From an archaeon (GTDB lineage Archaea; Thermoproteota; Bathyarchaeia; TCS64): a stretch of 16,933 nt of DNA. The DNA lies in the NCBI GenBank assembly GCA_020444005.1, contig JAHLLU010000015.1:1-16933 (forward strand). Reading direction: 5' to 3'. The translations under genes and the position numbers were made by a program. Every line of letters starts with the position of its first letter. Position 1 is the stretch's first letter. The notes beneath the pieces were generated by a model, which saw only the letters and a program-made list of their open reading frames with translations, was not told where the DNA came from and did not search any database. Of the stretch, positions 1-15,036 are shown piece by piece.

Positions 1-654
1 CTTGAACCGTTTAGCCGAAGCCACAGGGGCTAGTCCCACTTGAATAGGTGGATGGATCTCATCACCTACAGTTGATATGAAGTCTATGATCTCTCTTGGG
101 TCATAGGTGATCTGGGTTATGAAGAAATCAAAGCCGCTGTCTATCTTGGACTTGAATGTATCTGGTTCATTGGGTCGTCCAAGCACAATGGCACCACCTA
201 TATTGAAGTCAGTAGGCGTCTCAAGATTCCGAGAGTACCCCTTGTCCTGCGCGGTGCCGTTGTTCAAGCCTTTCACGATCCTGCATAATTCCTTACTTTT
301 TACTTCCCATACACCCTTAAAGTCGTTCTTCTTACGCGGCGTATCACCTGTAATGATGAAAACGTCTCTGAACCCAAGCATGTGGGCTCCAAGCAGCTCG
401 CTTTGAAGCGCCAAGAGATTCCGATCTCGACAGCTTAAATTGGGTACGATTGGCACGTTGAACTCTTCCCGAATATAGCTTCCATACACGATGGGACTGA
501 TCCTCATGGTTGCCATAGGATTATCAGTAATAGTTACCCCTGAGAGATAACCCTGAATCTCCTTAATAGGCTCCAAATGATTGATGCTACAGCCCCGTGG
601 AGGAACTACCTCATAGGTTACCGGGTAAGAGACGTGCAAATGCTCATAGAACAT
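1..654 (-). CDS. Methylenetetrahydrofolate reductase-like protein (MetF family), 3' end cut off by window edge
   Basis: The frame is open from an ATG at 654 to the left edge (218 codons, no stop), so the C-terminus is missing. The start YEVVPPRG (E15) matches the MetF beta-1 motif that carries the catalytic glutamate. ITGDTPR follows at about residue 100, and FDFFITQITYD near residue 180 is the family's typical C-terminal-half signature. MetF enzymes are TIM barrels that bind FAD and interconvert methylene- and methyl-tetrahydropterins, in methionine synthesis or the methyl branch of the Wood-Ljungdahl pathway. The start is fixed by a strong Shine-Dalgarno (GGAGGTG on the minus strand) inside the last codons of the upstream cupin, whose stop lies one base before this ATG, so the two are probably translationally coupled. 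The physiological pterin (THF or H4MPT) and the electron donor cannot be read from this fragment. Confidence 0.87.
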   Translation of the reverse strand, partial: MFYEHLHVSYPVTYEVVPPRGCSINHLEPIKEIQGYLSGVTITDNPMATMRISPIVYGSYIREEFNVPIVPNLSCRDRNLLALQSELLGAHMLGFRDVFIITGDTPRKKNDFKGVWEVKSKELCRIVKGLNNGTAQDKGYSRNLETPTDFNIGGAIVLGRPNEPDTFKSKIDSGFDFFITQITYDPREIIDFISTVGDEIHPPIQVGLAPVASAKRFK

Positions 655-655
655 T

Positions 656-1084
656 CTACACCTCCTCAGTCAAGAAATCCTCAGGACCAATCGTGGTCGC
701 AGTGTATTTCTTGAACGTATCACCGGCAGGCTCAGCTATGAAGTCGCCGTCCCACCACTCAAACGTGGTGATGTCATCATGGACGACCATTATGTGCGAT
801 ACTCCTGCTTCTACTGAGGTTATCTCACCAACCTTCAACGGTATAGTCTTCTCCACGCCATCCTCTATTAGCACATAATCTGCTTTTCCTGAAAGCAGTA
901 ACGTGTATTGAGTGCTTGGGTGGATGTGGTTACCCCGGTAGCTGCCTACCTTTGTCTCAAGTACTGAGTAAAATTTTCCATCTCGCTTGAAGGCATAGCC
1001 TTGACCGATGCCTTCGAATGTTCCCCATTCTTTTAGATTTAGACTGAGTGTTGTTTCCTCTCCTATTGGATACCCCCAATGCAT
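656..1084 (-). CDS. Small single-domain cupin protein
   Basis: This is a 142-residue protein with one cupin barrel. Motif 1 is visible as GNHIHPSTQ (H53, H55, Q59, where many cupins have Glu) with a following G66. Motif 2 is GEITSVEAGVSH (H97). The three histidines and Q59 could hold a metal ion. The C-terminal 30 residues (FEWWDGDF onward) lie outside the core motifs. No substrate can be assigned: single cupins include isomerases, dioxygenases and ligand-binding proteins. It is the first gene of a two-gene unit with the MetF-like gene, whose ribosome binding site overlaps this gene's last codons. That hints at a role in one-carbon metabolism or its control, but this is inference. The start is the first ATG; a weak AGGA lies six bases before it. 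Confidence 0.75.
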   Translation of the reverse strand: MHWGYPIGEETTLSLNLKEWGTFEGIGQGYAFKRDGKFYSVLETKVGSYRGNHIHPSTQYTLLLSGKADYVLIEDGVEKTIPLKVGEITSVEAGVSHIMVVHDDITTFEWWDGDFIAEPAGDTFKKYTATTIGPEDFLTEEV

Positions 1085-1103
1085 TTATTCCTATATTTAT
1101 GGA

Positions 1104-1117
1104 TTTTTGATAAACAC
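1104..1117 (-). promoter_or_regulatory. Possible promoter of the cupin-metF unit
   Basis: On the minus strand GTTTATCAAAAATCC lies about 27 bases before the cupin ATG, the right spacing for a near-leaderless archaeal transcript. The box is not a strong TATA consensus. A better-looking ATAAATATAG at 1091-1100 sits too close to the ATG to serve this start. Just upstream (1118-1131) is ATTCC-AAGG-GGAAT, a short inverted repeat that could be a regulator site. Confidence 0.3.
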
Positions 1118-1191
1118 ATTCCAAGGGGAATACAGTATAGACTCTAAATATGCCATAAATAATACAAGTTAACCAAAAATATTTCACAAAG

Positions 1192-1200
1192 AATAAATAT
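1192..1200 (+). promoter_or_regulatory. TATA box of the HTH-CBS gene
   Basis: AATAAATAT is centred 26 bases before the ATG at 1222, with no Shine-Dalgarno in between. This spacing predicts a leaderless transcript. Confidence 0.55.
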
Positions 1201-1221
1201 GATGATAAAATTCCTCTAGGC

Positions 1222-1782
1222 ATGCTCCCAGCAATAGAAATAATTCCTGAACGCAGAAGAAAACTAGGACTAACCCAAAGCCAACTAGCCGACCTCGCAG
1301 GAGTCAGCCAGAGCTACATTGCAAAGCTGGAGGCTGGAAAAATCGAGCCAAGCTACCTCAAGGTGAAATCAATCTTTGAGTCACTTGACAAGCTTGAGCG
1401 TAAGAAAGAGGTACAGGCGATGGAGATTATGACCGAGAACCCTGTTATCGTCCAGCAGACAGCCACAATACAGGAGACAGTCGAGATAATGCGGAGGAAT
1501 AATTTCAGTCAACTGCCAGTGTTTGATGGTGACAAAGCAGTGGGAGGCGTAAGCGAGAGAACTCTCCTAGACCAGATACTCTATAATGATGATGGGATAC
1601 CAGCAAACAGGAAACAGGTTAAGGATATCATGGATGATAGTTGGCCTATGGTGAGTGAGGACGCGCCATTGACGCTTTTGTCTAATCTGTTGAAGTATTA
1701 TCCGGCTATACTTGTGCAGCGTCAGGGTCAGGTTGTTGGCATAGTTACAAAGGCTGACCTCTTGGGCGTGTTCAGCGGATAA
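1222..1782 (+). CDS. XRE-type helix-turn-helix transcription regulator with paired CBS domains
   Basis: This 186-residue protein has an N-terminal XRE/Cro-like HTH at about residues 5-55 (RRRKLGLTQSQLADLAGVSQ, then SYIAKLEAGK, the typical recognition helix and turn). Two CBS motifs follow, at about 67-122 (EIMTENPVIVQQTATIQETV, later LPVFDG) and 132-185 (DIMDDS, later GIVTKADLLG). CBS pairs bind adenosyl ligands such as AMP, ATP or SAM, so the protein probably senses nucleotide or methyl-donor state and changes DNA binding. The architecture is a recognised archaeal regulator family. It is divergent from the cupin-metF unit across a 137-base AT-rich gap, which makes that unit a plausible target, and autoregulation is also possible. 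The start is supported by a TATA box 26 bases upstream. Confidence 0.85.
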   Translation: MLPAIEIIPERRRKLGLTQSQLADLAGVSQSYIAKLEAGKIEPSYLKVKSIFESLDKLERKKEVQAMEIMTENPVIVQQTATIQETVEIMRRNNFSQLPVFDGDKAVGGVSERTLLDQILYNDDGIPANRKQVKDIMDDSWPMVSEDAPLTLLSNLLKYYPAILVQRQGQVVGIVTKADLLGVFSG

Positions 1783-1790
1783 ACAAATTT

Positions 1791-1800
1791 CTTTTAAGAA
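1791..1800 (+). promoter_or_regulatory. TATA box of the anchored cyclophilin gene
   Basis: CTTTTAAGAA is centred about 26 bases before the ATG at 1822 and there is no Shine-Dalgarno, so a leaderless transcript is predicted. Confidence 0.55.
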
Positions 1801-1821
1801 AGCCCCCCTATCACGTATCCC

Positions 1822-2460
1822 ATGAAGCTGGAACGCAAGAAGATCATCTCAATATTCATCTTGTTTCTATTCTCAGGAAGCATAATCAGCATGGCCGCAA
1901 GCATATTCATGAAGCCAAAGACAGAGGAAACAGAGGGTACAATAGTTGTATTGGAGACATCTCTGGGGGATATTGAGGTTGAGCTTAACGCTGAAAAAGC
2001 TCCAGTTACTGTTGAGAACTTTTTGACATATGTGAACGCGGGTTGGTATGATGGACTATGTTTCCACCGAGTAATGTTTGGTTTCGTAGTTCAGGGAGGC
2101 GGCTTTGAGCCAGATGGAACCTTCAAGAACACAATGGAGCCCATAGAAATCGAATCAGACAACGGACTATCAAATCTAAACGGAACCATCGCCATGGCTC
2201 GTTCAACAGAGCCCGACAGCGCCACTAGCCAGTTCTACTTCAACATAAATGACAACACAGCCCTTGATTATGTTGATGAGGAGAACCCGGGATACACGGT
2301 TTTCGGTAAAGTCGTCTCAGGCATGGATGTGGTGATGGATATTACCAGAGCCGAGACAGGGCTTCACGAGGTCTATTATGCGGATTATGATTACACTGGA
2401 ACAGTTGAGGACTGGCCCGTTGAGGACATCTTGATAATCAGCGCCTACGTCAAAGAATAG
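1822..2460 (+). CDS. Membrane-anchored cyclophilin-type peptidyl-prolyl cis-trans isomerase
   Basis: This 212-residue protein begins MKLERKK followed by one hydrophobic segment (about residues 8-30), an uncleaved anchor or signal peptide that would place the enzyme on the outer face of the membrane. Residues 40-212 are a cyclophilin domain with FHRV (catalytic Arg R83), FVVQGGGF (Q91) and SATSQFYF. The position matching Phe113 of human cyclophilin A appears to be Tyr139. It catalyses proline cis-trans isomerisation during protein folding. It is paralogous to the next gene: both carry GTIAMAR and SATSQF at matching positions, with near-identical DNA there. Before the C-terminal strand there is an acidic insertion (YYADYDYTGTVEDW). 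A likely role is folding of secreted or S-layer proteins. Confidence 0.9.
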   Translation: MKLERKKIISIFILFLFSGSIISMAASIFMKPKTEETEGTIVVLETSLGDIEVELNAEKAPVTVENFLTYVNAGWYDGLCFHRVMFGFVVQGGGFEPDGTFKNTMEPIEIESDNGLSNLNGTIAMARSTEPDSATSQFYFNINDNTALDYVDEENPGYTVFGKVVSGMDVVMDITRAETGLHEVYYADYDYTGTVEDWPVEDILIISAYVKE

Positions 2461-2468
2461 CCCAAACT

Positions 2469-2480
2469 TATTCATTATAC
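2469..2480 (+). promoter_or_regulatory. Possible TATA box of the cytosolic cyclophilin gene
   Basis: TATTCATTATAC is centred about 25 bases before the ATG at 2499 but only about 12 before the ATG at 2487. It therefore favours the downstream start and a separate transcript for the second cyclophilin. Confidence 0.35.
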
Positions 2481-2498
2481 CATTACATGATAGGTTGC

Positions 2499-3005
2499 AT
2501 GACACCAACAGTCGTAATGGAGACAAGCAAAGGAAACATCGAGATAGAGCTTGACAAAGAGAAAGCACCAATCACGGTAGCCAATTTCGAGAAATATGTT
2601 AAGGAAGGCTTCTTCGATGGACTCTGCTTCCACCGGGTAATCAGAGGATTCATGATACAGGGCGGAGGATTCACACCAGACGGAGCAAGCCAAGACACTG
2701 GATCACCCATAAAGATCGAGTCAAAGAACGGTTTAAAAAACAAGAAAGGCACCATCGCCATGGCTCGTACAAGTGACCCCAACAGCGCCACTAGTCAGTT
2801 CTTCATAAACACGGTGGACAATGGTAACTTGGATTATCCTAGCTTTGATGGACACGGATACACAGTATTCGGCAAAGTGGTCGCGGGTATGGACGCGGTA
2901 ATTGCTATCGAGGCAGTAGCCACTGGAACCAAACTAACACCACATGGCCCAATGCAGGACTGGCCAAAAGAACCAATAGAAATCAAGAAAGCATACCTAA
3001 AATAA
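2499..3005 (+). CDS. Cytosolic cyclophilin-type peptidyl-prolyl cis-trans isomerase
   Basis: This is a single cyclophilin domain of 168 residues from the chosen start. An in-frame ATG at 2487 would add MIGC. I prefer 2499 because a TATA-like box sits about 25 bases before it and because MTPTVVMETSKG aligns with the start of the domain in the anchored paralogue. It carries FHRV with the catalytic Arg, FMIQGGGF, GTIAMAR and SATSQFFI, so all the usual active-site positions I can place are present, including the Phe that is Tyr in the paralogue. No signal peptide is seen, so it should act in the cytoplasm as a folding helper. It lies 38 bases after the anchored copy and converges with the amidohydrolase gene, leaving only five bases between the stops. 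Confidence 0.9.
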   Translation: MTPTVVMETSKGNIEIELDKEKAPITVANFEKYVKEGFFDGLCFHRVIRGFMIQGGGFTPDGASQDTGSPIKIESKNGLKNKKGTIAMARTSDPNSATSQFFINTVDNGNLDYPSFDGHGYTVFGKVVAGMDAVIAIEAVATGTKLTPHGPMQDWPKEPIEIKKAYLK

Positions 3006-3010
3006 AGGGG

Positions 3011-4177
3011 TTAACGGGAGAACACAAGTTCCCCGTCAATAAACACCATTCGCACTTGACTACGTGGATCCAATGGGTCACCCTTGGTGATCCGCAGGTC
3101 CGCGTCTTTTCCTTTTTCAATTGATCCAACCCGGTCACCTACACCTAGAATCTCAGCTGGGTTGATGGTAATGGTCTTCCATGCCTCCTCTTCACTGAGT
3201 CCATCACGAATAGCCAAAGCTGCACTGATAGGGAGGAAACCGATTTTACCGTTATCAGCGTCAGTCTGAAGAGCAACCTTTACTCCTGCGTCAACGAGGT
3301 TCTTCACTGTCTCAAAGGTTCGTTCACGGGTCTCCCATTTGGTTCGCCAGTTGAGCCCCGGACCCCAGACCGCTGGAATGCCTTTCTCCGCGATGTATTT
3401 CGCTATTCTGTGTCCTTCTGTGGCGTGCTCCCAGCTCATCTTGACGCCGAACTCTTCACAGATGCGTATGGCTATTGCCACATCGTCGGCTCTGTGGGCG
3501 TGGACTCTCAGGGGTATCTCGCCTTTGAGCACTGGTATGAGTGCCTCTAGTTTCAGGTCTTTCTCGGGTAGTTTTTCGGGGGTATCCTTGAATTGTTCCT
3601 TTTTCTCCATGTAGGTCTTGGCTTTGTAGAGCCATTCACGCATGATACCTGCCTCACCCATGCGGGTAGCTGGTAGAACCTTGTTTTTACCGTAGACGCT
3701 CATGGGGTTTTCACCAAATGCAGCTTTCATGCCGCTTGGGTTCAGGATTAGCATCTCATCAACAGTGGTTTTTGGAGCGGTTTTTATCACGACTCCAGTG
3801 CCGCCGATGACGTTTGCGCTGCCGGGTAAAATCTGTACAGTGGTTATACCGTTCTCATAGGCAGCGGTTAATCCTCCCTCGTCGGCGTTTGCTTTGATGC
3901 CGTCAAGGGCTCTGACTTGTGGAGTGATGGGGTCTGTTGCTTCGTTTCCGTCGCGTCCAGCCCATCCGATGGCTTCCTCCCAGATGCCTATGTGGCAGTG
4001 AGCTTCGACTAGTCCGGGTGTTACCCATTTTCCTCGTAGGTTGATCTCTTCAGCGTTTTTTGGTATCTTTATGTTGGTTCCTACGTCTTTGATCTTGCCT
4101 TTGTCTATGAGTATGATGCCTCGTTTGATGACTCCGTTGGTGATGGTGTTGATGTTCCCGTTTGTAAGGGCAATCAT
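3011..4177 (-). CDS. Metal-dependent amidohydrolase (imidazolonepropionase/prolidase-like), second of a tandem pair
   Basis: This gene encodes 388 residues from the chosen start. An upstream in-frame ATG at 4204 would overlap the previous gene by 17 bases. The ATG at 4177 is preferred because MIALTNGNINTITNG aligns with the start of the paralogue and a GGTGA motif lies just before it. The N-terminal beta-sandwich half is followed by the TIM-barrel signature VEAHCHIG (HxH metal ligands), then VHAHRADD, WEHATEGH and QTDAD (terminal Asp), and closes with GSIEKGKDADL and a C-terminal sandwich strand, the typical COG1228-like layout. Such enzymes hydrolyse cyclic amides or dipeptide-like C-N bonds using one or two metal ions. 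The substrate cannot be inferred. It is probably cotranscribed with the paralogue just upstream. Confidence 0.85.
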   Translation of the reverse strand: MIALTNGNINTITNGVIKRGIILIDKGKIKDVGTNIKIPKNAEEINLRGKWVTPGLVEAHCHIGIWEEAIGWAGRDGNEATDPITPQVRALDGIKANADEGGLTAAYENGITTVQILPGSANVIGGTGVVIKTAPKTTVDEMLILNPSGMKAAFGENPMSVYGKNKVLPATRMGEAGIMREWLYKAKTYMEKKEQFKDTPEKLPEKDLKLEALIPVLKGEIPLRVHAHRADDVAIAIRICEEFGVKMSWEHATEGHRIAKYIAEKGIPAVWGPGLNWRTKWETRERTFETVKNLVDAGVKVALQTDADNGKIGFLPISAALAIRDGLSEEEAWKTITINPAEILGVGDRVGSIEKGKDADLRITKGDPLDPRSQVRMVFIDGELVFSR

Positions 4178-4187
4178 CATATCACCT

Positions 4188-5351
4188 TTAGAGGCTGTGG
4201 ACAACCTCGCCGTTGATGATGACCTTCTGACACTTGGTCATAATATCCAACGGGTCACCGCTCAACAACCGTAGGTCAGCGTCCTTACCCACCTCAAGGC
4301 TACCCACACGATCTCCAACGCCTATAATCTCGGCTGGGATGGTGGTTATCGCCTTCAAAGCATAATCATAGGGCAAGCCCTCTTTGACGCTCAAGGCTGC
4401 ACAGATAGGTAGGAACCTGATGGTGCTGCCTACGGCATCAGTCTGGATGGAGAACTTGACACCAGCCTCGTATAGAGCAAGGGGAGTCTCGTAGCTGAGT
4501 TCCCTCATCTCCCATTTGCCTCTGCTTGTTAGACTTGGACCCCAGACGGCTGGAACCTTCTTTTCAGCGATGTAGTCAGCGATCCTGTGCCCTTCTGTGG
4601 CGTGCTCCCAGCTCATATTGACATCGAACTCCTCGCAGACTCTGATAGCTGTGGCTACGTCGTCTGCCCTGTGGGCGTGTGCCCTGAAGGGGATCTCTTT
4701 TTTGACTACTGGAACCAAGGCTTCGAGTTTGATGTCGTATTCTGGTTGTTTCTCAGGCTCGTCCGCGAATCGCTCCATCTTCTCCATATAGTTCTTGGTC
4801 TTCTGAAGCCATTCTCGCAGGACACCGGCTACACCCATTCTTGTGGATGGCATCTTCTTTGCCTCAACGCCATAAACCCTCATGGGGTTCTCTCCAAAGG
4901 CGATCTTCATGCCGCTTGGGTTCTTGATGAGCATCTGATCAACCGTGGTCTTGGGCGTTGTCTTTAATGCGACGCCGTGTCCGCCGATTACGTTTGCGCT
5001 TCCCGGAAGCACCTGTGCTGTGGTGATTCCCTCATGGAGTGCTGCTTTGAGTCCTCCTTCGTCGGCGTTGGCTTTGATACCGTCAAGGGCTCTTACGTGG
5101 GGTGTGGCTGGTTCTGTGCGCTCGTTTCCGTCGCTTCCAGCCCATCCGATGGTCTCTTCCCAGATGCCGATGTGGCAGTGGGCTTCAACGAGTCCGGGCA
5201 TAACATACTTTGCTTTGATGGTTTTCACGCCATCAGGAACCTTGACATCGGCACCGATCTTCTTGATCTTGCCGTCTTCGATGAGCACGATGCCGTTGTC
5301 GATGATCCCGTTTGTGATTGTATTGACTTTACGTCCTTTTACTGCAATCAT
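4188..5351 (-). CDS. Metal-dependent amidohydrolase (imidazolonepropionase/prolidase-like), first of a tandem pair
   Basis: This 387-residue protein has the same architecture as its downstream paralogue. The composite beta-sandwich is formed by residues 1-50 and the C-terminal 40. The metal ligands visible are H58 and H60 (AHCHIG), H225 and/or H227 (AHAHRADD), H250 and H255 (WEHATEGHR) and D305 (QTDA). The segment PGSANVIGG and the following KTxPKTTVD are shared almost exactly with the paralogue. No signal peptide is seen, so it is cytoplasmic. The stop lies ten bases before the preferred start of the second copy, consistent with an operon. Upstream are TATA-like boxes at 5381-5400. The product class is secure; the substrate is unknown. 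Confidence 0.86.
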   Translation of the reverse strand: MIAVKGRKVNTITNGIIDNGIVLIEDGKIKKIGADVKVPDGVKTIKAKYVMPGLVEAHCHIGIWEETIGWAGSDGNERTEPATPHVRALDGIKANADEGGLKAALHEGITTAQVLPGSANVIGGHGVALKTTPKTTVDQMLIKNPSGMKIAFGENPMRVYGVEAKKMPSTRMGVAGVLREWLQKTKNYMEKMERFADEPEKQPEYDIKLEALVPVVKKEIPFRAHAHRADDVATAIRVCEEFDVNMSWEHATEGHRIADYIAEKKVPAVWGPSLTSRGKWEMRELSYETPLALYEAGVKFSIQTDAVGSTIRFLPICAALSVKEGLPYDYALKAITTIPAEIIGVGDRVGSLEVGKDADLRLLSGDPLDIMTKCQKVIINGEVVHSL

Positions 5352-5378
5352 TTCAATTCATTCCTATTTGTTTTAGAT

Positions 5379-5400
5379 TGATATAGAACTTTTCTTAAAG
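5379..5400 (-). promoter_or_regulatory. Promoter region of the amidohydrolase pair
   Basis: On the minus strand two TATA-like elements are visible: TTCTATAT (5381-5388), which would start RNA about seven bases before the ATG at 5351, and CTTTAAGAAA (5391-5400). The second overlaps the T-rich terminator of the upstream operon. Confidence 0.4.
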
Positions 5401-5414
5401 AAAAAAAGAAAAAA
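5392..5414 (-). terminator. T-rich terminator of the DUF6754 operon
   Basis: Eight bases after the last stop of the operon the minus strand reads T6-C-T7-C-TTT, a typical archaeal oligo-T termination signal. A low-complexity TTTTCTT/AAGAAAA inverted repeat lies at its end. Confidence 0.6.
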
Positions 5415-5421
5415 GGGGAGT

Positions 5422-6144
5422 TTATTCTTCGGGTGTCTCCTTCTTCATGAACAAGTCATACCCAATCATGCTAGCAAGCATGACAAAGGCGATGACAATG
5501 AACGCCATCCTCGCGTCAGCGGGGTTTGGCGGGATTCCCAGCAAGTACTGGGCACGTCCAATGAAGAGACTGTACCTAGTGAGCACAGTGTATCCGTAAG
5601 CAGAACCGAAACCAGCCATCATCGTATAGCGCGCTATCTTCTCTACCACCTTCATTGGTGCTGATTCACGGGTTTCCCCTGTGAACCAGAAGTAGAGTAA
5701 AACGCATGGCACCATTATCTGTACCAGAATATTGTTTATGGTTTGCACCATGTCTCCTGCTACAAAGAAGGGCGTGTTTGCTTGACTGACGATCTGGTCT
5801 AGGAACTGGCTGAATACTACTGTCTTCAAAGCCATACCGATACCTGTACCGACGACTATCGCTAAGGGCCATCTGTAGAGGTAGAAGAGGCTTTTGTTGA
5901 ACCTAGCGTACCATAGGACGCCTACAAACATCACAATGATGAATGCAAACATCATAAGGCCACTACTGCTCCATTGCCCACCCCACTGGTCTCTGATATA
6001 CTTCAAGTCCTGACCGACGGCATAGCCTACGGCTACGCCTAGGTAGATGCTCTCAGCTAGCCTGTACCATGGGTTTTCTCTATAGAGTATGCTATAGATA
6101 CCTAGGGTGAAGAAGACCGCGGTCCAAACTGCTATGTCGACCAT
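5422..6144 (-). CDS. Polytopic membrane protein, fourth gene of the DUF6754 operon
   Basis: This 240-residue protein has about seven hydrophobic segments (roughly residues 4-21, 31-47, 63-80, 92-112, 136-154, 173-196, 213-232). Distinctive stretches are NPWYRLAESIYLGVAVGYAV in the first loop and second segment, and GSAYGYTVLTRYSLFIGRAQ near the C-terminus. I recognise no enzyme or transporter motif. From memory, similar proteins accompany DUF6754 proteins in some bacterial genomes such as Chloroflexota, but no function is known to me. The start is firm: the previous stop lies one base upstream, and the acidic tail of the previous protein (EEED) doubles as a long GGAGGAGGAGG Shine-Dalgarno. 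A T-rich terminator follows the stop. Confidence 0.85.
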   Translation of the reverse strand: MVDIAVWTAVFFTLGIYSILYRENPWYRLAESIYLGVAVGYAVGQDLKYIRDQWGGQWSSSGLMMFAFIIVMFVGVLWYARFNKSLFYLYRWPLAIVVGTGIGMALKTVVFSQFLDQIVSQANTPFFVAGDMVQTINNILVQIMVPCVLLYFWFTGETRESAPMKVVEKIARYTMMAGFGSAYGYTVLTRYSLFIGRAQYLLGIPPNPADARMAFIVIAFVMLASMIGYDLFMKKETPEE

Positions 6145-6145
6145 C

Positions 6146-6979
6146 TTAGTCCTCCTCCTCCTTTGTCATGAAGTACGCAAGGTTTCCCACTATGACTAGT
6201 AGGGTTACGTACAAGTGGCTAGTTGATACAGCGTCTACTCCCGCAACAGCTAGACCCGGCTTCTCCAAGAGTATCTCGTATTCTGCTGATACGGTTAGTC
6301 CCGGCATCAAGGCTTTTAGTTGCCCTGAGTTGACGTAGGGTATCATTCCTGATACAGATACGCCGATACAGCCTGTGATCTGGTCTGTTCCGAAGGGGGC
6401 TTGGAACTGCCTCATCCATTCGGGTGTTCCTGGTGTTCCTGTCTCGAAGCTTACGATTACATCGATGTCCTCGCCGGTTTGGATATCATCCATCATGGGG
6501 AACGAGCTTAGGGGTCTTCCTTCAACATAGTCAGCCGTTACAGTGTTATGTATGCTAGCGGCGAAGCTGCCCATTGCAGTCTCGCTACCGGGTACGTATC
6601 CTAGTCTTATCCAGTCCTCACCGTAGACATAGCCATAATCGGCTGGGTCTACTTGTTCGAGGAGCGTGTTAAAGACCAATGGTCCCTGTGTCCAGAAGCT
6701 GACTACGATTATGCTTACATCTTTTGTTAATAGATGCTTCATAGTTGCAACTGTCATGGGGAACAGTTCAGGCATACCTGATACACCATACATTGGCGCT
6801 AAGAGTACAACATCTCCGTCATTGATCTCGTTTTCGACGTAGTCATACCATGTTCTAGCGTCTTGACTGATGGGGATGGGTAACCCGAGGGGGTTTAGAA
6901 GTGGGAAGAGTACAACTATCCAAGCTAGTAAGTATATATATCGTCTATCCAAATTTTTCAACTTAACTAAAAAGGACAC
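6146..6979 (-). CDS. Membrane-anchored extracytoplasmic alpha/beta protein, third gene of the DUF6754 operon
   Basis: This 277-residue protein has an N-terminal transmembrane segment (about 14-32) preceded by KLKNLDRR and a C-terminal one (about 255-272) followed by TKEEED. By the positive-inside rule the roughly 220-residue middle domain lies outside the cell. Its alternating hydrophobic strands (DVVLLAP, SIIVVSFW, DIDVIVSFETG) suggest an alpha/beta fold. Conserved-looking blocks are GEDWIRLGYVPGSE, PMMDDI, GTPGTPEW and PYVNSGQLKALMPGL. No catalytic motif is recognised. The start is GTG, overlapping the previous stop by one base (TAGTG), with GGAGGTGA as a strong ribosome binding site. From memory, bacterial DUF6754 clusters hold a related protein. 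The function is unknown. Confidence 0.83.
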   Translation of the reverse strand: MSFLVKLKNLDRRYIYLLAWIVVLFPLLNPLGLPIPISQDARTWYDYVENEINDGDVVLLAPMYGVSGMPELFPMTVATMKHLLTKDVSIIVVSFWTQGPLVFNTLLEQVDPADYGYVYGEDWIRLGYVPGSETAMGSFAASIHNTVTADYVEGRPLSSFPMMDDIQTGEDIDVIVSFETGTPGTPEWMRQFQAPFGTDQITGCIGVSVSGMIPYVNSGQLKALMPGLTVSAEYEILLEKPGLAVAGVDAVSTSHLYVTLLVIVGNLAYFMTKEEED

Positions 6980-7635
6980 TACTCTTCACCTCCACCTCTT
7001 AGGTATCCACGTTCAATACCCATCAGGGTACGTACTGCTAATGCCATGCTGCCGAGGGCTGCACCGATCATGACACCTCTAAATGTTGCCATGTTGGGGT
7101 AGCTCCTAATCCACAACGCTATATCCGCAATGAAGGGAAGATAGTTTGTGAGTAGAGGAGCGTTACTCATGACCATGATGGTTCCCGCGACGAGGACTAT
7201 GCTAGACTCAACGTTCCTAGCCCTGAAGGCTCGGAAAGCTGCTGAGGTAATGAAGAAAGCCAAGATACTGTACATTGTGCTTCCTAGGGGCGTTAGTACG
7301 TTTGTAAACAGCCAATTGTAAACAGAGTTGTTTACGCTAAGACCTACCTCTGGTATCGGTAGACCAGTAATTGACATGATTACAGTGAATCCAATTACGA
7401 GAAGACTGTAATACCAGCCCTCGCTTTGTCTTTGGATTCTTTTCCCATGGACCTGTATGATGCTGATTACGCCTACAAAAGTCGCGCATGCGACTATTAT
7501 CAATACAGCGTTTGACGCTGTGTTGGCGGCGCTTTCGAGGGGAGGGATATCCAAGTAATACGGGATTACCTGAAGAAGTGTCGCTATGATTGTCAATGCA
7601 ATCGGAATTTCAATTCTTCTTAATACGTCACTCAT
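6979..7635 (-). CDS. Polytopic membrane protein, second gene of the DUF6754 operon
   Basis: This 218-residue protein has about six hydrophobic segments (roughly 9-26, 42-62, 75-92, 118-135, 144-163, 183-202). The most distinctive part is the stretch MYSILAFFITSAAFRAFRAR after segment three and the C-terminal LMGIERGYLRGGGEE. No known transport or catalytic motif is seen. It starts six bases after the DUF6754 gene and its stop shares one base with the next start, so coordinated, coupled expression is likely. Its glycine/glutamate tail also supplies the ribosome binding site of the next gene. From memory it resembles membrane proteins found beside DUF6754 in bacteria. The function is unknown. 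Confidence 0.83.
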   Translation of the reverse strand: MSDVLRRIEIPIALTIIATLLQVIPYYLDIPPLESAANTASNAVLIIVACATFVGVISIIQVHGKRIQRQSEGWYYSLLVIGFTVIMSITGLPIPEVGLSVNNSVYNWLFTNVLTPLGSTMYSILAFFITSAAFRAFRARNVESSIVLVAGTIMVMSNAPLLTNYLPFIADIALWIRSYPNMATFRGVMIGAALGSMALAVRTLMGIERGYLRGGGEE

Positions 7636-7641
7636 TTTTCA

Positions 7642-8427
7642 TCACATCCCAAATAGGTCCAGGAGAATATTGGTTCCAAACGTGACCGTTATAGCACCTA
7701 GGAGACCGAGGATAACCGCGATTATCCTACCAACGTCTTGCCCAGCTAAGCTAGCAATTAATGGGGCGTCGTCTGTCAAGTAGGCTCCAGCAGCGTAGAT
7801 CTCCTCACCGATCAGACAATAGTCTGATACGACTAAGAAGAACGGGATCTGCGATGTGTTTGCGGTTCCCGTGATCTGCATTGCGCCTATTCTTGAACCA
7901 GTCTCAGCGAGTTGGAGGGACTCTGCCCAGTAGGCGCCAACCATGATGTTGGCTCCGGGTTTCTCCCTCATCATCATACCCATATAGTTACTTGAATAAC
8001 CGAACTGATTGTTGGAGAGGAACGGTACCTTGTCTGGATCAAATTCATCACCTCTTCCTGCTAGCTTGTACTCTGTCTCGACTATATCAGCCGCTACAGG
8101 CCAGACCTCTGGCTGCCTAACCGGTACATAAAGATCCGCACCTACAGACACTGTCTGTTTAGCTACATAGCTAAGGACGCTAAGACCCGCTAGGGTCTGA
8201 GGCCCCGATGTAGCTGCGCGGAGGTTTGCGATACCGTGGCTGCAGAAGACTGGTCTTCCCATTTCGACTGCTCTGCCTATCGATTCATCTATGGCGTCGA
8301 TTCCTGGAATGCGTCGTACTTTTGGTACTTTGCCTCCCTGTGATTCACGTATGTAGTACGCTACTGCGCCCATGATGACGAGTAAGCAGACTAGCCCGAA
8401 GATTCTTCCAGCTATGAGAAATGCCAT
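7642..8427 (-). CDS. DUF6754-type membrane protein, first gene of a four-gene operon
   Basis: This 261-residue protein has one N-terminal transmembrane segment (about 5-26), a soluble domain (about 30-230) and a C-terminal hydrophobic segment (about 232-258). The basic loop after the first segment (RESQGGKVPKVRR) suggests that the soluble domain faces the cytoplasm. Recognisable blocks are RRIPGIDAIDESIGRAVEMG, QTLAGLSVLSYVAK, MREKPGANIMVGAYWAES, AETGSRIGAMQITGT, and SDYCLIGEEIYAAGAYL followed later by GQD. I match these from memory to DUF6754, a family of unknown function known mainly from bacteria. The ATG is preceded by AAAGGAG at ten bases' spacing, with a TATA box further up. It leads a tightly packed operon of four membrane proteins. 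Confidence 0.83.
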   Translation of the reverse strand: MAFLIAGRIFGLVCLLVIMGAVAYYIRESQGGKVPKVRRIPGIDAIDESIGRAVEMGRPVFCSHGIANLRAATSGPQTLAGLSVLSYVAKQTVSVGADLYVPVRQPEVWPVAADIVETEYKLAGRGDEFDPDKVPFLSNNQFGYSSNYMGMMMREKPGANIMVGAYWAESLQLAETGSRIGAMQITGTANTSQIPFFLVVSDYCLIGEEIYAAGAYLTDDAPLIASLAGQDVGRIIAVILGLLGAITVTFGTNILLDLFGM

Positions 8428-8470
8428 ATTGTTATGTCTCCTTTCTCCGGGAAATAGTACGAAGAATCAG

Positions 8471-8482
8471 GTATATAATATT
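8471..8482 (-). promoter_or_regulatory. Promoter of the DUF6754 operon
   Basis: On the minus strand AATATTATATAC lies about 50 bases before the ATG, predicting a leader of roughly 23 bases that contains the GGAG ribosome binding site at 8438-8441. This is the best TATA box in the 151-base gap shared with the divergent nuclease gene. Confidence 0.55.
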
Positions 8483-8548
8483 CATCCTTAAAGTGAAGGT
8501 AAAACAGAGATACTTGTAGTATAATCTACACAGATTGTGCGTAAATTT

Positions 8549-8555
8549 CTATAAT
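8549..8555 (+). promoter_or_regulatory. TATA box of the winged-helix nuclease gene
   Basis: CTATAAT is centred 27 bases before the TTG at 8579 with no Shine-Dalgarno, so a leaderless TTG start is predicted. Confidence 0.5.
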
Positions 8556-8578
8556 GGGGGTTCCCGTCTCTACATATC

Positions 8579-9313
8579 TTGAATAGCGTAACTCAGAGAC
8601 TCATACTTCAATATATTCTAGATGGAACAAAAGAAGGCGCAATTGATCTAAATGAGACAAGAGAGAATCTGGTTATCACAGAGGAAGCGATTCAAAGCAT
8701 AGTTGAACAGTTAAAGAACGATAACTTGATCAGTGTTAAAGGGGAAATGGTCTCGGCTAACGTTGACCAACGGATCGAGTTAGCTGTGATGGCTATAAAG
8801 AACGGCGCCGATTTTGAGAAGGTAAGTAAGAGTCTTGGGTGGCTTGAGTTCGAGGAACTGGTGGCTCGTGTCTTCAGAGAGAATGGTTACAATACCATGA
8901 GTCGTTACAGGTTCAAGGCGGAGGGTCGTAGGTGGGAGATTGATGTCTTGGCTACGAGTTATCCGTATATTGTGTGCGCTGAGTGTAAGCATTATACTAG
9001 TGGTATGGGTAATAGCACGGCTCGGAATATTATTGAGATACATATAGAGAAAACTGAAGTGCTCAGCAAGCATATCGGCGAGGTTGCCAAGAAGATTGGC
9101 GTTCAGAGCTGGAAGACCGCGGTATTGGTACCAATAACTCTCACGCTTTCACCCACAAAGATGAACATCTACAGGCGAATGCCCAGTGTATCTGTTTTCA
9201 TGCTGCCAAGCTTCTTGGATGAGTTCCCCGGGTATCTTGAAAGGATAATCAATTTCCCCGTGGACATACCAGAGTACAAACCCAAACCAAAGCAGCTGCG
9301 GCTCGGAGTTTAA
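8579..9313 (+). CDS. Winged-helix plus Mrr-like PD-(D/E)XK nuclease-fold protein
   Basis: This 244-residue protein opens with a probable winged-helix domain (about 1-62; LVITEEAIQSIVEQLKNDNL, then ISVKGEMV as the wing). A restriction-endonuclease-like domain follows from about 88: GWLEFEELVARVFRENGY (E92/E93 in the first helix), WEIDVLA (D122) and CAECKHYTSG (E135, K137), the D-(x)n-ExK core of the Mrr/Hjc-like nuclease fold. The key residues appear intact, so DNA cleavage is possible, in defence or repair. No methyltransferase or other restriction partner is nearby. No ATG starts this frame; the TTG at 8579 is chosen because of the TATA box 27 bases before it. It is divergent from the DUF6754 operon, with no evidence of a functional link. 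Confidence 0.8.
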   Translation: MNSVTQRLILQYILDGTKEGAIDLNETRENLVITEEAIQSIVEQLKNDNLISVKGEMVSANVDQRIELAVMAIKNGADFEKVSKSLGWLEFEELVARVFRENGYNTMSRYRFKAEGRRWEIDVLATSYPYIVCAECKHYTSGMGNSTARNIIEIHIEKTEVLSKHIGEVAKKIGVQSWKTAVLVPITLTLSPTKMNIYRRMPSVSVFMLPSFLDEFPGYLERIINFPVDIPEYKPKPKQLRLGV

Positions 9314-9335
9314 CCAAGACAAACATAATCTTAGA

Positions 9336-9365
9336 TTTTAGGCATGCTAAAGGTAATGCCTAAAA
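9336..9365. promoter_or_regulatory. Perfect inverted repeat, candidate metal-regulator operator
   Basis: TTTTAGGCAT (9336-9345) and ATGCCTAAAA (9356-9365) are exact reverse complements around a ten-base spacer (GCTAAAGGTA). The element ends 24 bases before the ATG of a metal exporter. It overlaps one candidate TATA (CCTAAAAG, 9359-9366) and covers the start point predicted from another (ACATAATCTTA, 9323-9333). The half site recalls the TTAGG-type sites of DtxR/MntR-family metalloregulators. A role as an RNA hairpin or terminator is less likely because no T-tract follows. Confidence 0.55.
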
Positions 9366-9389
9366 GCCGCCGGTGTTGAGGTTGCCCAA

Positions 9390-10253
9390 ATGGATAAGAA
9401 GAGCACCGCAGCTTCGGCGATAATAGGCGGCGTACTAATATTTGCAGTAAAGCTGTATGCTTGGTGGATCAGTGGCTCGGTTGCTCTTCTCTCAGACGCT
9501 TTGGAGTCTGTTGTGAATATCATTGCATCAGTGATGATGTTTGCCAGCGTCTTGATCAGCGAGAAACCTCCTGATGAGGACCATATGTATGGACATCAGA
9601 AGATAGAGAACATAAGCTGTTTCATAGAGGGCTTCTTAGTTATAGTAGCTGGCCTGCTGATAGCTTGGGCAGCGTATGGTAGATTGTTGAACCCTGTTGT
9701 ACTAGTTGAGTTGAATATTGCGGTGTTTATCTCGTTGTTCGCTACAAGTCTCAACGGGGTTCTCTCATGGCTATTGATGAGAACAGCGGATAAGACAGGC
9801 AGCCTTGCATTAGAGGGCGATGCCAAGCATCTGTTGTCTGATGTGATCTCATCTGTGGGTGTGATTATCGGGCTCTTCATCGGTGAACAACTAGGCATCC
9901 CAGTGATTGACCCATTGATGGCTATGATAGTGGCTGTATTGGTTTTGAAGATGGGAATAGAGCTTGTCCTGAAATCAGGTGGAGGCTTGATGGATGAGTC
10001 CTGTGGCGAGACCGAGACGGAGATCAGACGAATAATGGACAGACATCATCAGAGCTTTGTGGATTACCATAACCTGAAGACACGGAAAAGCGGTGAAAGG
10101 GTGTTTGCTGAGCTACATCTGAGTTTGGATGGCGGGTTATCTGTACAGGAGGCCCATGATTTCACCGATCATCTTGAGGAAGATGTACAGGAAGAGCTAC
10201 CAAACGTTTCACTGACTATTCATATTGAGCCTGAGAAAAATAGTGGGACTTAA
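9390..10253 (+). CDS. Cation diffusion facilitator (CDF) family metal exporter
   Basis: This 287-residue protein has six hydrophobic segments in the first 195 residues and a ferredoxin-like cytoplasmic domain at about 200-283, the usual CDF plan. TM2 carries LLSDALESVVN and TM5 carries DAKHLLSDVISS with the expected HxxxD pair (H147, D151). In TM2 the residues aligned with the usual H/D-xxx-D metal ligands appear to be E39 and N43, so the transport site is not of the standard Zn type. CDFs exchange cytoplasmic Zn, Mn, Fe, Co, Ni or Cd for protons. The metal cannot be assigned. A GAGGT motif lies seven bases before the ATG. The upstream inverted repeat suggests metal-dependent control. It converges with the next gene, sharing two bases of the stops. 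Confidence 0.9.
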   Translation: MDKKSTAASAIIGGVLIFAVKLYAWWISGSVALLSDALESVVNIIASVMMFASVLISEKPPDEDHMYGHQKIENISCFIEGFLVIVAGLLIAWAAYGRLLNPVVLVELNIAVFISLFATSLNGVLSWLLMRTADKTGSLALEGDAKHLLSDVISSVGVIIGLFIGEQLGIPVIDPLMAMIVAVLVLKMGIELVLKSGGGLMDESCGETETEIRRIMDRHHQSFVDYHNLKTRKSGERVFAELHLSLDGGLSVQEAHDFTDHLEEDVQEELPNVSLTIHIEPEKNSGT

Positions 10254-11533
10254 TGGGTAATCCCAAGTGAGTCTTTTCTTAGCATTAACGCTACTGCTAT
10301 GCCTATTGCGATGAACGCTGTGGGCATGGGTATTCCAGTGCTTGTATTGTCTGGTTCGGTGGTTTCCTCTACCTGTATTATAGCCCATGTGCTGAAGTGG
10401 TCTGTATCAGCCTCCAATACGTTCTCATCAGTTAAACTGCTGTCAACTGGCTCCCAGTTCTCACCATTCCAGTAAGCCCATGTAAGCTGTTCCATCTCCA
10501 TATTCATACTCTGAACCATGGCTGGGTCAACCTCCATGCCTAGACGCGCCTGTGTGATGGTTGCGTTTGGCTCTATCTCACAGTAGAAGCCCATGTATTT
10601 TCCGGGTTCGTCTACGTCTGTGGGTTTGCTCTCACGGAGCTGAACCTGTAGCTTAAGGGCCTCACCTGAATCAACCTTAAGGCGTAGTGCCTTCTGGTTA
10701 TACTGGTTCTCAGCCGAGACCTCTAACTGAAGACTGTTTGTGCAGTTCATATAGAGTCCAGTGTTCTGGAACTGGAACATGGTTGCTTGGTTACGCATCA
10801 CCTGATGCGTGAATCCCTGCGGAACTATATCAGTGAAGGTATAGTTCATGGTTTTCACTCGCTGGGGCTCGCCTATGCCTGTTTCTTCTGGTGGTCCCTG
10901 CTCTATGATGGTCCATACGCTGAAGTGGGTGGTATTTACCTCAAGGAAACCATCAGCAGTTAGCCTGCTTTTAACTGGCTCCCAGTCTGTATCGTTCCAG
11001 TAGCACCAAGTCATCCGGCTCATGTTGAAGCCAGAGCCTAGCTCTTGTTCAAGCTGGGTCATGTTCATGTAGTATCTTAGTGTGGCATTCATTGGTCCTG
11101 TGCTATTGGTTTCTATCTGCATGTACTGGTTGATGCCTTGTGCTGGTCCCGGTATGTTCTCGGGTGGAGTGCCCTTGGCGTTGAGTTGCATATGCATGTT
11201 GCGCTCGGTCTTGATGTTCATGGCTAGATATGGCATGTTCACGTCATCGTCGCTTGTGATGTTCATAGTCATGCTGCGTGTACAGTTGACCGCCATCACC
11301 ATGTTCCTGAACTGGAGTAGCTGTGGTGTACCACCGGTATAGTTGTGGCGGAAATTAGAGGGAACCAGGTCGGTTCTGTTTACTCTGTGGGTTAATCCTT
11401 GCCCTAGCTCGGTCCAGTCGGTTAAGTCGGGCATATGTGGTCCGCTGGTTCCAGCTGCTTGGATCAGTGGTGCTTGAAAGTTCGCTAATATTGTTAATGT
11501 TACGAGGAGTACAGTTGTTAGTATTCTTTTCAT
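10250..11533 (-). CDS. Secreted, C-terminally anchored Met-rich protein with two repeats
   Basis: This 427-residue protein has a clear signal peptide (MKRILTTVLLVTLTILA, likely cleavage after QAA near residue 27). Two related units follow, at about 36-212 and 228-388. Both contain GxTHxV near the start, a strand with N-C-T (MAVNCTRS / YMNCTNS) and a closing block WxYWN..xWEPV.S.LT followed by THFSVWTII / DHFSTWAII. Methionine is frequent (about 28 residues) and there are many N-x-S/T sequons, suggesting glycosylation. The tail TGIPMPTAFIAIGIAVALMLRK is a Pro-containing linker, hydrophobic segment and basic end, like archaeal surface-protein anchors or sorting signals. It is probably a surface protein. 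Ligand and function are unknown; metal binding by Met residues, next to a metal exporter, is speculation. Confidence 0.8.
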   Translation of the reverse strand: MKRILTTVLLVTLTILANFQAPLIQAAGTSGPHMPDLTDWTELGQGLTHRVNRTDLVPSNFRHNYTGGTPQLLQFRNMVMAVNCTRSMTMNITSDDDVNMPYLAMNIKTERNMHMQLNAKGTPPENIPGPAQGINQYMQIETNSTGPMNATLRYYMNMTQLEQELGSGFNMSRMTWCYWNDTDWEPVKSRLTADGFLEVNTTHFSVWTIIEQGPPEETGIGEPQRVKTMNYTFTDIVPQGFTHQVMRNQATMFQFQNTGLYMNCTNSLQLEVSAENQYNQKALRLKVDSGEALKLQVQLRESKPTDVDEPGKYMGFYCEIEPNATITQARLGMEVDPAMVQSMNMEMEQLTWAYWNGENWEPVDSSLTDENVLEADTDHFSTWAIIQVEETTEPDNTSTGIPMPTAFIAIGIAVALMLRKDSLGITH

Positions 11534-11560
11534 AGTTCTCGACTTGGAATATACCTAGTT

Positions 11561-11570
11561 GATACTTTAG
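11561..11570 (-). promoter_or_regulatory. Possible TATA box of the Met-rich surface protein gene
   Basis: CTAAAGTATC on the minus strand is centred about 33 bases before the ATG at 11533. A closer GGTATATTCC (11547-11556) is too near for standard spacing. Confidence 0.3.
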
Positions 11571-11603
11571 GGATGCTAAGAAACAGGATGGAATGATTGT
11601 TCC

Positions 11604-11616
11604 AAAAAAGAAGAGA
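11604..11616 (-). terminator. T-rich terminator after the AOR gene
   Basis: Directly after the stop the minus strand reads TCTCTTCTTTTTT, an oligo-T stretch suited to archaeal termination. No stable stem precedes it. Confidence 0.4.
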
Positions 11617-11618
11617 GA

Positions 11619-13445
11619 TTAAGAAACCTTGACGTATTTGGCTAATTCCTCGGCTTCCTCAGCCAAATTAAGCTCCTTTAGGGTCTTCTTTGTGGGTATT
11701 CCCCGTTCATCCCAGCCACGTTTCTCGTAGTAGAATGAAAGAAGCTTGTCGTACTTGGCTTCATCAAGGTGTTTGCCTTCAAGTGGTCCCTTGGGTAGCG
11801 GATGTTTGAACCAGCGTACCGGTGGATAGTCCATCTTTCGGCTCCACTCCTCGCCGTACTCCCTCGCCCAGAACGCCCTCATCAAAGCGTATACTCTGTC
11901 GCCCATCTTCCACATCTCGTCTAGGTCCATCTTTACCCCTGTGGCTGCCTCAAAGTACTTGGGGTAGTCCTCTAGTGGGTATCCTAGCTCGATCCATGGG
12001 AACCTGCATGCTACAATGGTCTCAAAGAGTCCGCCTCTGATGCGCTGGAACTCGATTACTTTTTCAGCTTTTTCTGGTCCGTACTCGCCTCTGATGCCGC
12101 TGCTGATCTCCCAGCTGATGACCCACGCATCCTTGTGGTGGGCTCCGATTGGGCTTGTTCCGAAGCTCATACCCGGACAATAATGGCAGTCATATGCGCT
12201 TACCTCTAAGCCCTTGACGTGGATAGCGTAATCAGGTGCTTCTCCACCGATCTCCTTGGCTGCCGCTCTAGTTCCTTTACCGAAAATGGCTCCATTTCCT
12301 TTCATCTCAGCCATCTCGTATAGCAGTTTCTTGGCGCCTTCAAAGTCACCAAACTTGAGGTTCATATCAACGAGACCCTTCTCGGCGCACTCCATGGCTA
12401 AGCCTATACAGCTTCCTGCTCCTATAGTGTCCAATCCAAGCTGGTCACATATCCTGTTCAAGGTACCTACCTGTGCAAGGTCACCTATTCCGATGTTTGG
12501 TCCAAGCATTGTTACGTTCTCATAGTCTAGCTCAGACTCTATGCCTTCACTGTCGAGTATCGTGTTTCCACAGATCATGTTGCAGTTGGGGCACCCACGC
12601 TGAGTAACGGTAGCAGCGTGTACCGCGTCGCCGTTTACATTATCAATGTGTTCGAATTGTCCTTCGCTGAAGTTACGTGTGGGTAGAGCTGATGCTGTCT
12701 GCATCATGTCGGCTGCCATCATGGTACCTACCTTCTTCCAGTAGGGGAAGGCATCAAACTTGGGTATCTTTGCGAACCCTTCCTTACCTAGCTTGGATAG
12801 CTCTTCTGGGTGAGCTGCGGGAATCTCCCGTTTACCGTTAAATATGACTGCTTTGAGGTGTTTGCTGCCCATGACTGCACCCATTCCGGGGCGTCCTCCG
12901 GCTCTACCTTTCTGAGCGACCACAGTAGCGATGTTACAGAGGTTTTCTCCACTCTGTCCAATTATCAATACACCTGTGGCTCCGCCATGCTTCTCTAATA
13001 GCCAGTCCTCTGTAACATAGCTGTCCTTGCCCCAGAGGTGGGTTGCGTCTAGTATCTCAACTTTATCGTCTACAACCGAGATATAGACTGGTTTCTCTGA
13101 TTTTCCTGTGACTACGACTGCGTCTAAGCCACATTTTCTCATGTTTACAGCTGCACGGGTTCCGAGGTTACCGTCTCCATATCCTCCAGTTAGGGGGCTC
13201 TTGGCGGCTACAACCATCTTGCCGCTGTTGGGTACGGTGTAGGCTGTGTATGGTCCTGCTGCGAATATTAGCATGTTTTCGGGTCCAAGAGGGTCTGCTC
13301 CTTGAGGTAGTTCATCCCATAGGAGTTTTACTGCGAGTCCTCTTCCTCCGATGAAGCGTTTGGCTATGTCCTCATTGTAGGTTGTTATCTTTGATGTTCC
13401 CTTTGTTAGGTCTACTCTGAGGATTTTTCCATTCCATCCCTTCAT
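11619..13445 (-). CDS. Tungsten-type aldehyde:ferredoxin oxidoreductase family protein
   Basis: This 608-residue protein is the normal length for AOR/FOR enzymes. The N-terminal domain (GWNGKILRVDLT, FIGGRGLA) matches the family domain that binds the bis-pterin cofactor. The Fe4S4 ligands C285, C288 and C292 (GCPNCNMIC) plus C480 (VACRFPW) are all present. The first pterin-contact motif is DQLGLDT (334-340). The second, normally close to DxxGLC around the last cysteine, reads ETIVACR, so it is divergent. AORs oxidise aldehydes to acids (or the reverse) in the cytoplasm with ferredoxin. Pyrococcus AOR also has a catalytic Glu, and E309 in DYENVTMLG may correspond. A MoaD-like gene lies 87 bases upstream. 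The true substrate is unknown, and Mo versus W cannot be told from sequence alone. Confidence 0.92.
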   Translation of the reverse strand: MKGWNGKILRVDLTKGTSKITTYNEDIAKRFIGGRGLAVKLLWDELPQGADPLGPENMLIFAAGPYTAYTVPNSGKMVVAAKSPLTGGYGDGNLGTRAAVNMRKCGLDAVVVTGKSEKPVYISVVDDKVEILDATHLWGKDSYVTEDWLLEKHGGATGVLIIGQSGENLCNIATVVAQKGRAGGRPGMGAVMGSKHLKAVIFNGKREIPAAHPEELSKLGKEGFAKIPKFDAFPYWKKVGTMMAADMMQTASALPTRNFSEGQFEHIDNVNGDAVHAATVTQRGCPNCNMICGNTILDSEGIESELDYENVTMLGPNIGIGDLAQVGTLNRICDQLGLDTIGAGSCIGLAMECAEKGLVDMNLKFGDFEGAKKLLYEMAEMKGNGAIFGKGTRAAAKEIGGEAPDYAIHVKGLEVSAYDCHYCPGMSFGTSPIGAHHKDAWVISWEISSGIRGEYGPEKAEKVIEFQRIRGGLFETIVACRFPWIELGYPLEDYPKYFEAATGVKMDLDEMWKMGDRVYALMRAFWAREYGEEWSRKMDYPPVRWFKHPLPKGPLEGKHLDEAKYDKLLSFYYEKRGWDERGIPTKKTLKELNLAEEAEELAKYVKVS

Positions 13446-13474
13446 GTTTATCGGTTATCAGAATCATTGACCCT

Positions 13475-13487
13475 GCTTAAGCCTTTT
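13475..13487 (-). promoter_or_regulatory. Promoter of the AOR gene
   Basis: On the minus strand AAAAGGCTTAAGC lies about 34 bases before the ATG: a purine-rich BRE-like part followed by CTTAAG. A leader of about eight bases is predicted. AOR may therefore be transcribed on its own as well as from the MoaD-like gene. Confidence 0.45.
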
Positions 13488-13532
13488 ACCATCGATAGGC
13501 AACGGTATACAAATCGCTACTATGAAAAGAAC

Positions 13533-13811: not shown

Positions 13812-13834
13812 AACACCAGAAACAACAGCGCATG

Positions 13835-13847
13835 TGATAAAATTATC
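13835..13847 (-). promoter_or_regulatory. Possible promoter of the MoaD-like gene
   Basis: GATAATTTTATC on the minus strand is centred about 29 bases before the ATG at 13811, predicting an almost leaderless RNA. An unusual G8-A-G4 run (plus strand, 13851-13863) lies just upstream of it. Confidence 0.4.
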
Positions 13848-13996
13848 TTAGGGGGGGGAGGGGTACCAACGAAAAAACCCGGAAGCGGCTGGTTTCAATA
13901 AAAGAATCCCCAGAACAGCCCAGATCGCCTTCTGATAAACGTAAAAAAGCGTATGAGTAACGGGGTTTTAACGACAAAAAGTGTATCAAATGAAGA

Positions 13997-15012: not shown

Positions 15013-15036
15013 CTTGATTGTTGGTGTATCGACACT

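Follow-up and report, generated by a model that had tools for sequence, protein, structure and literature searches.

We analyzed a stretch of 16,933 nucleotides from an archaeon (GTDB lineage Archaea; Thermoproteota; Bathyarchaeia; TCS64; assembly GCA_020444005.1, contig JAHLLU010000015.1, positions 1 to 16,933 of the forward strand), referred to below as the window. On its minus strand lie four consecutive genes for membrane proteins, here called g1 to g4: g1 (7642..8427, 261 amino acids), which encodes a DUF6754 protein, g2 (6979..7635, 218 amino acids), g3 (6146..6979, 277 amino acids) and g4 (5422..6144, 240 amino acids). All start with ATG except g3, which starts with GTG. Successive genes are spaced by +6, −1 and +1 bases, and the coordinates of the open reading frames (ORFs) agree exactly with the packing described in a first-pass annotation made from the sequence alone. 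That annotation also proposed a shared promoter and an oligo-T terminator. On the minus strand we read a TATA-like box (TTATATA, 8472..8478) and a ribosome-binding-like site (AAAGGAG, 8438..8444) upstream of g1, and an oligo-T stretch (5397..5414) directly after g4, which would act as promoter element, ribosome-binding site and terminator, respectively. The box and the oligo-T stretch are present as proposed, but no stem-loop accompanies the latter: an automatic terminator scan, whose counts were at background, listed none after g4. A single shared transcript for g1–g4 is plausible.

The assignment of g1 to DUF6754 in that annotation is borne out by a hidden Markov model (HMM) search, in which g1 matches PF20539 with an E-value of 2e-79 (266.8 bits against a cut-off of 27) over model positions 9–255 of 257. 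It is a full-length member of a family whose Pfam entry describes g1 alone and names no function. None of g2, g3 and g4 has a Pfam match over cut-off (g2 and g4 have none at E ≤ 1), and their NCBIfam matches are all far below cut-off, so the HMM search did not distribute the four proteins among unrelated known families. There are 273 homologs of g3, and the best 120 of these 273 carry no Pfam domain or functional name. AlphaFold2 models of g1 and g3 (predicted local distance difference test scores of 93.4 and 96.2) have no Foldseek match at E ≤ 0.001, for which reason we dropped fold searching as a route to function. The best VIA-align scores for g1 are with Sir2 (11.8), PGK (10.4), GmhA (9.9) and the RCK domain of MthK (9.6); those for g3, with a polyketide synthase chain (8.8) and a carbon monoxide dehydrogenase (CODH) chain (8.5), are near the level of models without true relatives. 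Unlike sirtuins and related alpha/beta nucleotide-binding folds, g1 has its domain framed by transmembrane helices, and it has no Pfam sirtuin match. Common ancestry between g1 and g3, or between g2 and g4, was rejected at hhalign probabilities of 2.7% and 10%.

The order g1-g2-g3-g4 on one strand is found in 54 of 61 related loci, identified with profiles built for this analysis, which rules out a chance arrangement or mis-called ORFs. Among the seven other loci, three are near a contig end (L031, L084, L090), one lacks g4 (L033) and three have g1 alone (L082, L083, L086). By their record titles, the 54 loci belong to Bathyarchaeota, Methanomethylicota/Culexarchaea, Fermentithermobacillaceae, other Bacillota, Chloroflexota, Melainabacteria, Sumerlaeota, Wallbacteria, UBP16 and Myxococcota. 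The four genes are therefore kept together as a module across domains, as the first-pass annotation had suspected, and relatives of g2–g4 do stand beside DUF6754 in bacteria, Chloroflexota included (L079); scattered homologs without co-occurrence were not observed. The closest record, a Bathyarchaeota metagenome assembly (L031), has a g1 that is 99% identical; its coordinates match those of contig C93 in the nearest genome, G001.

At the level of whole genomes, DUF6754 is present in 30 of 61 relatives of the nearest genome (G001), with up to 15 copies, and in only 4 of 200 genomes across the phylum, so its distribution is patchy. In one genome, G018, all 15 DUF6754 copies are complete four-gene sets. 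Across a survey of 25 genomes with 88 DUF6754 matches, g3 is the next gene downstream in 82 cases, and two of the other six are at a contig start; six g3 matches have no g1 within 1.2 kb. This survey leaves out genomes G185 and G208 and two fragmentary DUF6754 rows (G004:C17:10690-10842 and G013:C10:12891-13013), and counts a split gene (G006:C228) as two. Copy number ranges from 1 to 27 per genome, with varied metabolic neighbors, and several large bacterial genomes have a single copy. The highest count seen, 27 DUF6754 matches in a 3.8-Mb assembly, is in G269, the genome of the Bacillota locus L080.

Two further genes, both outside the window, accompany the module: one for a long MutL-type ATPase (PF13941, hereafter MutL), and one, encoded next after MutL, for a barrel-sandwich-like protein of about 380 residues for which we coin the name adaptor. 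In a census of flanking genes, 133 of 135 ORFs next to modules were scanned, together with 141 of 161 ORFs from control stretches, with 25 families shown per set. PF13941 was matched by 6 of the 133 flanking proteins and by no more than 1 of the 141 controls. Among archaea, MutL is present in 27 of 29 module-bearing genomes and the adaptor in 28 of 29, and both are absent from all 16 module-free relatives; these 29 are the 33 known module-bearing genomes less G017, G025, G026 and G032. MutL and the adaptor were each found in 19 of 20 other module-bearing genomes, a set covering 20 of 21 loci (all but L088); G268 has coordinates identical to those of G208 and is probably a repeat count of that genome. 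In the nearest genome, G001, MutL and the adaptor have two matches each. Within Myxococcota (140 genomes), the phylum of G250, which is the genome of the Myxococcales locus L085, DUF6754 occurs in 9 genomes and the adaptor in 8, with a weak match in one more: seven genomes have both, two have DUF6754 alone and one has the adaptor alone (Fisher P = 1.6e-9, ancestry ignored).

Gene order also ties the pair to the module. MutL is followed by the adaptor on the same strand in 47 of 52 MutL matches, the other five being partial matches, and a g1 is no more than 10 kb away for 23 of 50 MutL matches, compared with 2.8 expected (50 of the 52 MutL rows of the archaeal survey, G185 and G208 being omitted). 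The contiguous order MutL, adaptor, g1, g2, g3, g4 is seen in an archaeon (L034/L134) and in a Sumerlaeota locus (L091). The adaptor directly precedes g1 in eleven further genomes: in five of them (G009, G010, G029, G030 and G031) MutL precedes the adaptor-g1 pair, and the others are G250, G258, G272, G315, G354 and G405. At L048 the MutL/adaptor pair is instead located after g4. From gene order and co-occurrence we infer that g1–g4, MutL and the adaptor may form one six-part complex. The view that the window holds a conserved module of undescribed function is supported, with these two partners added to it; to DUF6754 itself our analysis adds g2–g4 as a three-gene tail, along with MutL and its adaptor.

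The arrangement of the membrane proteins gives some indication of how such a complex would be built. In the AlphaFold2 models, both g1 and g3 have an alpha/beta domain flanked by one transmembrane helix at each end of the protein; g2 has about six transmembrane helices and g4 six to seven by hydropathy. Around the first transmembrane helix (TM1) of g1 the mean number of lysines plus arginines is 4.12 after the helix and 0.24 before it, and bacterial g1 proteins have long regions before TM1, which in L090 include a LysM domain over cut-off (E = 2.3e-5); we read signal peptides and a likeness to FN3 in these regions by eye. Because of the charge pattern and the bacterial extensions, the alpha/beta domain of g1 is predicted to be cytoplasmic. 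In L078, the loop between helices 3 and 4 of g2 holds an Ig-like domain that is 48% identical over 85 residues (E = 1e-24) to the domain before TM1 of g1, so both should lie outside. For g3 the pattern is reversed and weaker (2.91 before TM1, 1.28 after), and its alpha/beta domain is predicted from charge to be outside, less securely than the placement of g1. Near-invariant residues of g4 are Glu31, Arg91, Arg190 and Arg197; the conserved columns of g1–g4 include no cysteine or other obvious active-site set. Across 46 loci, pairwise identity averages 46% for g1, 38% for g2, 36% for g3 and 39% for g4. Column conservation is 61% for MutL (12 rows), 65% for the adaptor (13 rows), 42% for g1 and 34% for g3 (64 rows each, that of g3 being 64 of 65 dereplicated rows with the incomplete L084 left out), values that come from differing row sets.

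The domains of the bacterial proteins that are predicted to be exterior suggest one alternative, a complex for envelope anchoring or mechanical work in which an ASKHA-type ATPase and the adaptor, on the inner face, would position or remodel surface structures such as the cell wall or S-layer. LysM or Ig-like regions before TM1, the shared Ig-like domain of g2 and the single module copy of several large bacterial genomes are consistent with it, as are the genes before g1 in L082, with products that include a Big_5 Ig-like protein and one whose match to an outer-membrane barrel is below cut-off. However, up to 15–27 copies with differing neighbors in a genome would be unusual for one scaffold, and the g1 proteins of archaea and Fermentithermobacillaceae, with lengths near 260 amino acids, have no such extensions. 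We think an envelope role of this kind unlikely.

The linked MutL proteins match the full PF13941 model (cut-off 27), with 399.5 bits in L044, 434.8 in L091 and 390.9 in L134, and 12 of 12 aligned rows keep the motifs DxGSTT(T/S)K, GVxxGGATT and G(T/S)GG, which we take to be ASKHA-fold phosphate and adenosine motifs. PF13941 is the family of GlmL, a helper of glutamate mutase, from which the linked proteins differ in their length of about 610 amino acids, with an extra C-terminal part. A role as glutamate mutase helper was rejected: the L044 protein is below the NCBIfam cut-offs for GlmL (NF040745, 208.2 of 475 bits) and for Or-4 (NF040744, 210.9 of 600 bits), and glutamate mutase E (PF06368) is over cut-off in only 1 of 49 module genomes (G264), with a weak match in one more. 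Short PF13941 matches, such as true GlmL would give, also occur (G263, G264). There is also a subfamily of short adaptors, aligned only to about position 300 and without the C-terminal part (G011, G021, G023, G016, G020, G003, G008 and G001), which adjoins more divergent MutL genes. When g1, g3, the adaptor and MutL were searched by sequence against solved structures, nothing better than E = 0.015 was found.

The system could also be a membrane-bound ATP-dependent enzyme: MutL, which is related to the hydantoinase/oxoprolinase group, would phosphorylate or activate a substrate, and the membrane subunits would deliver or modify it. This is improbable in our view, as the MutL of L134 has no Hydantoinase match in the Pfam scan, the structural resemblances of g1 are spread over unrelated families, and no obvious conserved active-site set was found in g1–g4. 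The adaptor, for its part, has weak Pfam matches to Biotin_lipoyl (best E = 3.6e-4) and RnfC_N (best E = 7.6e-4), both below cut-off, and g2 and g4 have about six transmembrane helices, as RnfA and RnfE do, features that would suit an Rnf/Nqr-like ion pump with the adaptor in the role of RnfC. Such a pump is very hard to reconcile with the rest of the data: no Rnf/Nqr membrane subunit family matches any of g1–g4 at E ≤ 1, no conserved column of these proteins is a cysteine, and an ATPase partner is not known as a part of Rnf or Nqr.

We propose that g1–g4, MutL and the adaptor are the six components of a system that takes up small nutrients at the expense of ATP, with g1–g4 as its membrane part; we give this reading a probability of roughly 0.35. 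Modules occur in many copies and outnumber the linked ATPases, and they have two polytopic subunits and a domain on either side of the membrane; these features suggest importers of differing substrate with a shared motor. Substrate binding would fall to the outside domain of g3 and the path through the membrane to g2 and g4, and the inside domain of g1 would dock the soluble MutL/adaptor pair. MutL would hydrolyze ATP and, via the adaptor, drive g1 and the membrane path between states. Where a genome has many modules, as G018 has 15 with 3 MutL, a small number of MutL/adaptor pairs would be shared by modules that take up different substrates. A multi-copy, substrate-specific importer with a shared MutL-type ATPase is our best explanation of the system, although transport, substrate, coupling and physical assembly are all matters that we infer. 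Some of the same features, namely many copies and one soluble domain per membrane face, would also fit a signaling complex in which g3 senses an outside ligand and g1 relays its state to MutL and the adaptor, which control metabolism. However, the six proteins include no kinase, cyclase or response-regulator family, and two polytopic subunits of about six helices exceed what a sensor usually needs, so we regard signaling as improbable.

The logic proposed for the importer is that of ABC and ECF importers, in which several membrane parts share one motor. No ABC ATPase (PF00005) or ABC permease family was found at E ≤ 1 in g1–g4, two MutL and four adaptors. The TRAP/Tct families (DctQ/DctM, TctA/TctB) were likewise absent from g2 and g4, which match nothing in Pfam at that threshold. 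The likeness to Rnf/Nqr consists of a weakly barrel-sandwich-like soluble subunit and subunits with about six transmembrane helices; it differs in having an ATPase partner and no conserved cysteines. By the Pfam features tested, the system is no ABC, TRAP/Tct or Rnf/Nqr system, and the linked MutL is not GlmL proper. We judge the system to be new in kind, with an uncertain mechanism. No paper in the library searched mentions DUF6754, PF20539 or PF13941, and the titles listed for wider queries concern other subjects.

The substrate in the window might, as a local hint, be an amide or small peptide cut by the products of two amidohydrolase genes on the minus strand, one directly downstream of g4 (4188..5351, PF07969/PF01979) and the other a paralog of it (3011..4204, PF01979/PF07969). 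As a strong functional clue, an amidohydrolase or peptidase link was rejected for want of a clear excess over control stretches.

Several observations weigh against an importer with this composition. No sequence or fold relatives of known transporters were found among g1–g4 by Pfam, NCBIfam, Foldseek or the listing of g3 homologs; the LysM and Ig-like extensions of bacterial g1 are also compatible with an envelope scaffold; and the conservation of g3, the proposed binding subunit, is barely below that of g2 and g4. As for the partners, two genomes have the module without MutL or the adaptor (G006, G261) and one has it without MutL alone (G004), the MutL/adaptor pair is unlinked to the module in many genomes, and in G250 about 3.9 kb separate the MutL match from the adaptor that comes after it. 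Three DUF6754 genes have no detectable g2–g4 in their locus (L082:3467-4666, L083:2577-3338 and L086:7941-8708). As for the neighbors, among the eight close loci L031–L038, an amidohydrolase is behind g4 only in L035, L037 and L038, and L034 has Iso_dh there; in the flank and control ORFs, Amidohydro_3 is found 5 versus 2 times, Amidohydro_1 4 versus 3 and M20 5 versus 4; and modules also have CODH/ACS (acetyl-CoA synthase) and aldehyde ferredoxin oxidoreductase (AOR) genes as neighbors.

Other genes in the window are described here for completeness. A divergently transcribed gene (8579-9313, plus strand) has weak Mrr_cat/NERD nuclease matches, and its relatives are found near the module in L031, L033, L035, L037 and L038. 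An AOR gene (11619-13445, minus strand) lies behind a small ORF of 92 amino acids that is MoaD-like by eye (13533-13811, minus strand); AOR genes are also near modules in L033, L035 and L038. Two tandem genes for cyclophilin-type peptidyl-prolyl isomerases occupy 1822-3005 on the plus strand, the first with a signal-like start. A 427-amino-acid protein (10250-11533, minus strand), also present in L031, has a signal-like start, a C-terminal transmembrane segment and two halves that look similar by eye; Pfam gives nothing for it at E ≤ 0.001. Outside the window, several Fermentithermobacillaceae loci have a ribonucleotide reductase gene upstream of the module; in L043 (4001-7762, plus strand) this gene is split by an intein with a LAGLIDADG domain.

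The four-gene block, with 1 to 27 copies per genome, keeps its order in archaea and across seven or more named bacterial groups, and has the look of a widespread capability among microbes that are mostly uncultured. It may represent a class of primary transporters, spanning archaea and many bacterial groups, in which a MutL-type ATPase of the ASKHA (actin/Hsp70) fold and a barrel-sandwich adaptor power interchangeable four-subunit modules, up to 27 per genome, a possibility that we regard as doubtful but worth stating; this class would operate without an ABC, rotary or P-type motor. Should a MutL-type ATPase indeed drive the membrane part, it would add a further sort of transport motor to the ABC, rotary and P-type kinds. 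The link also suggests a testable function for long MutL proteins whose genomes lack glutamate mutase, and the six proteins are a defined set that is open to expression and testing.

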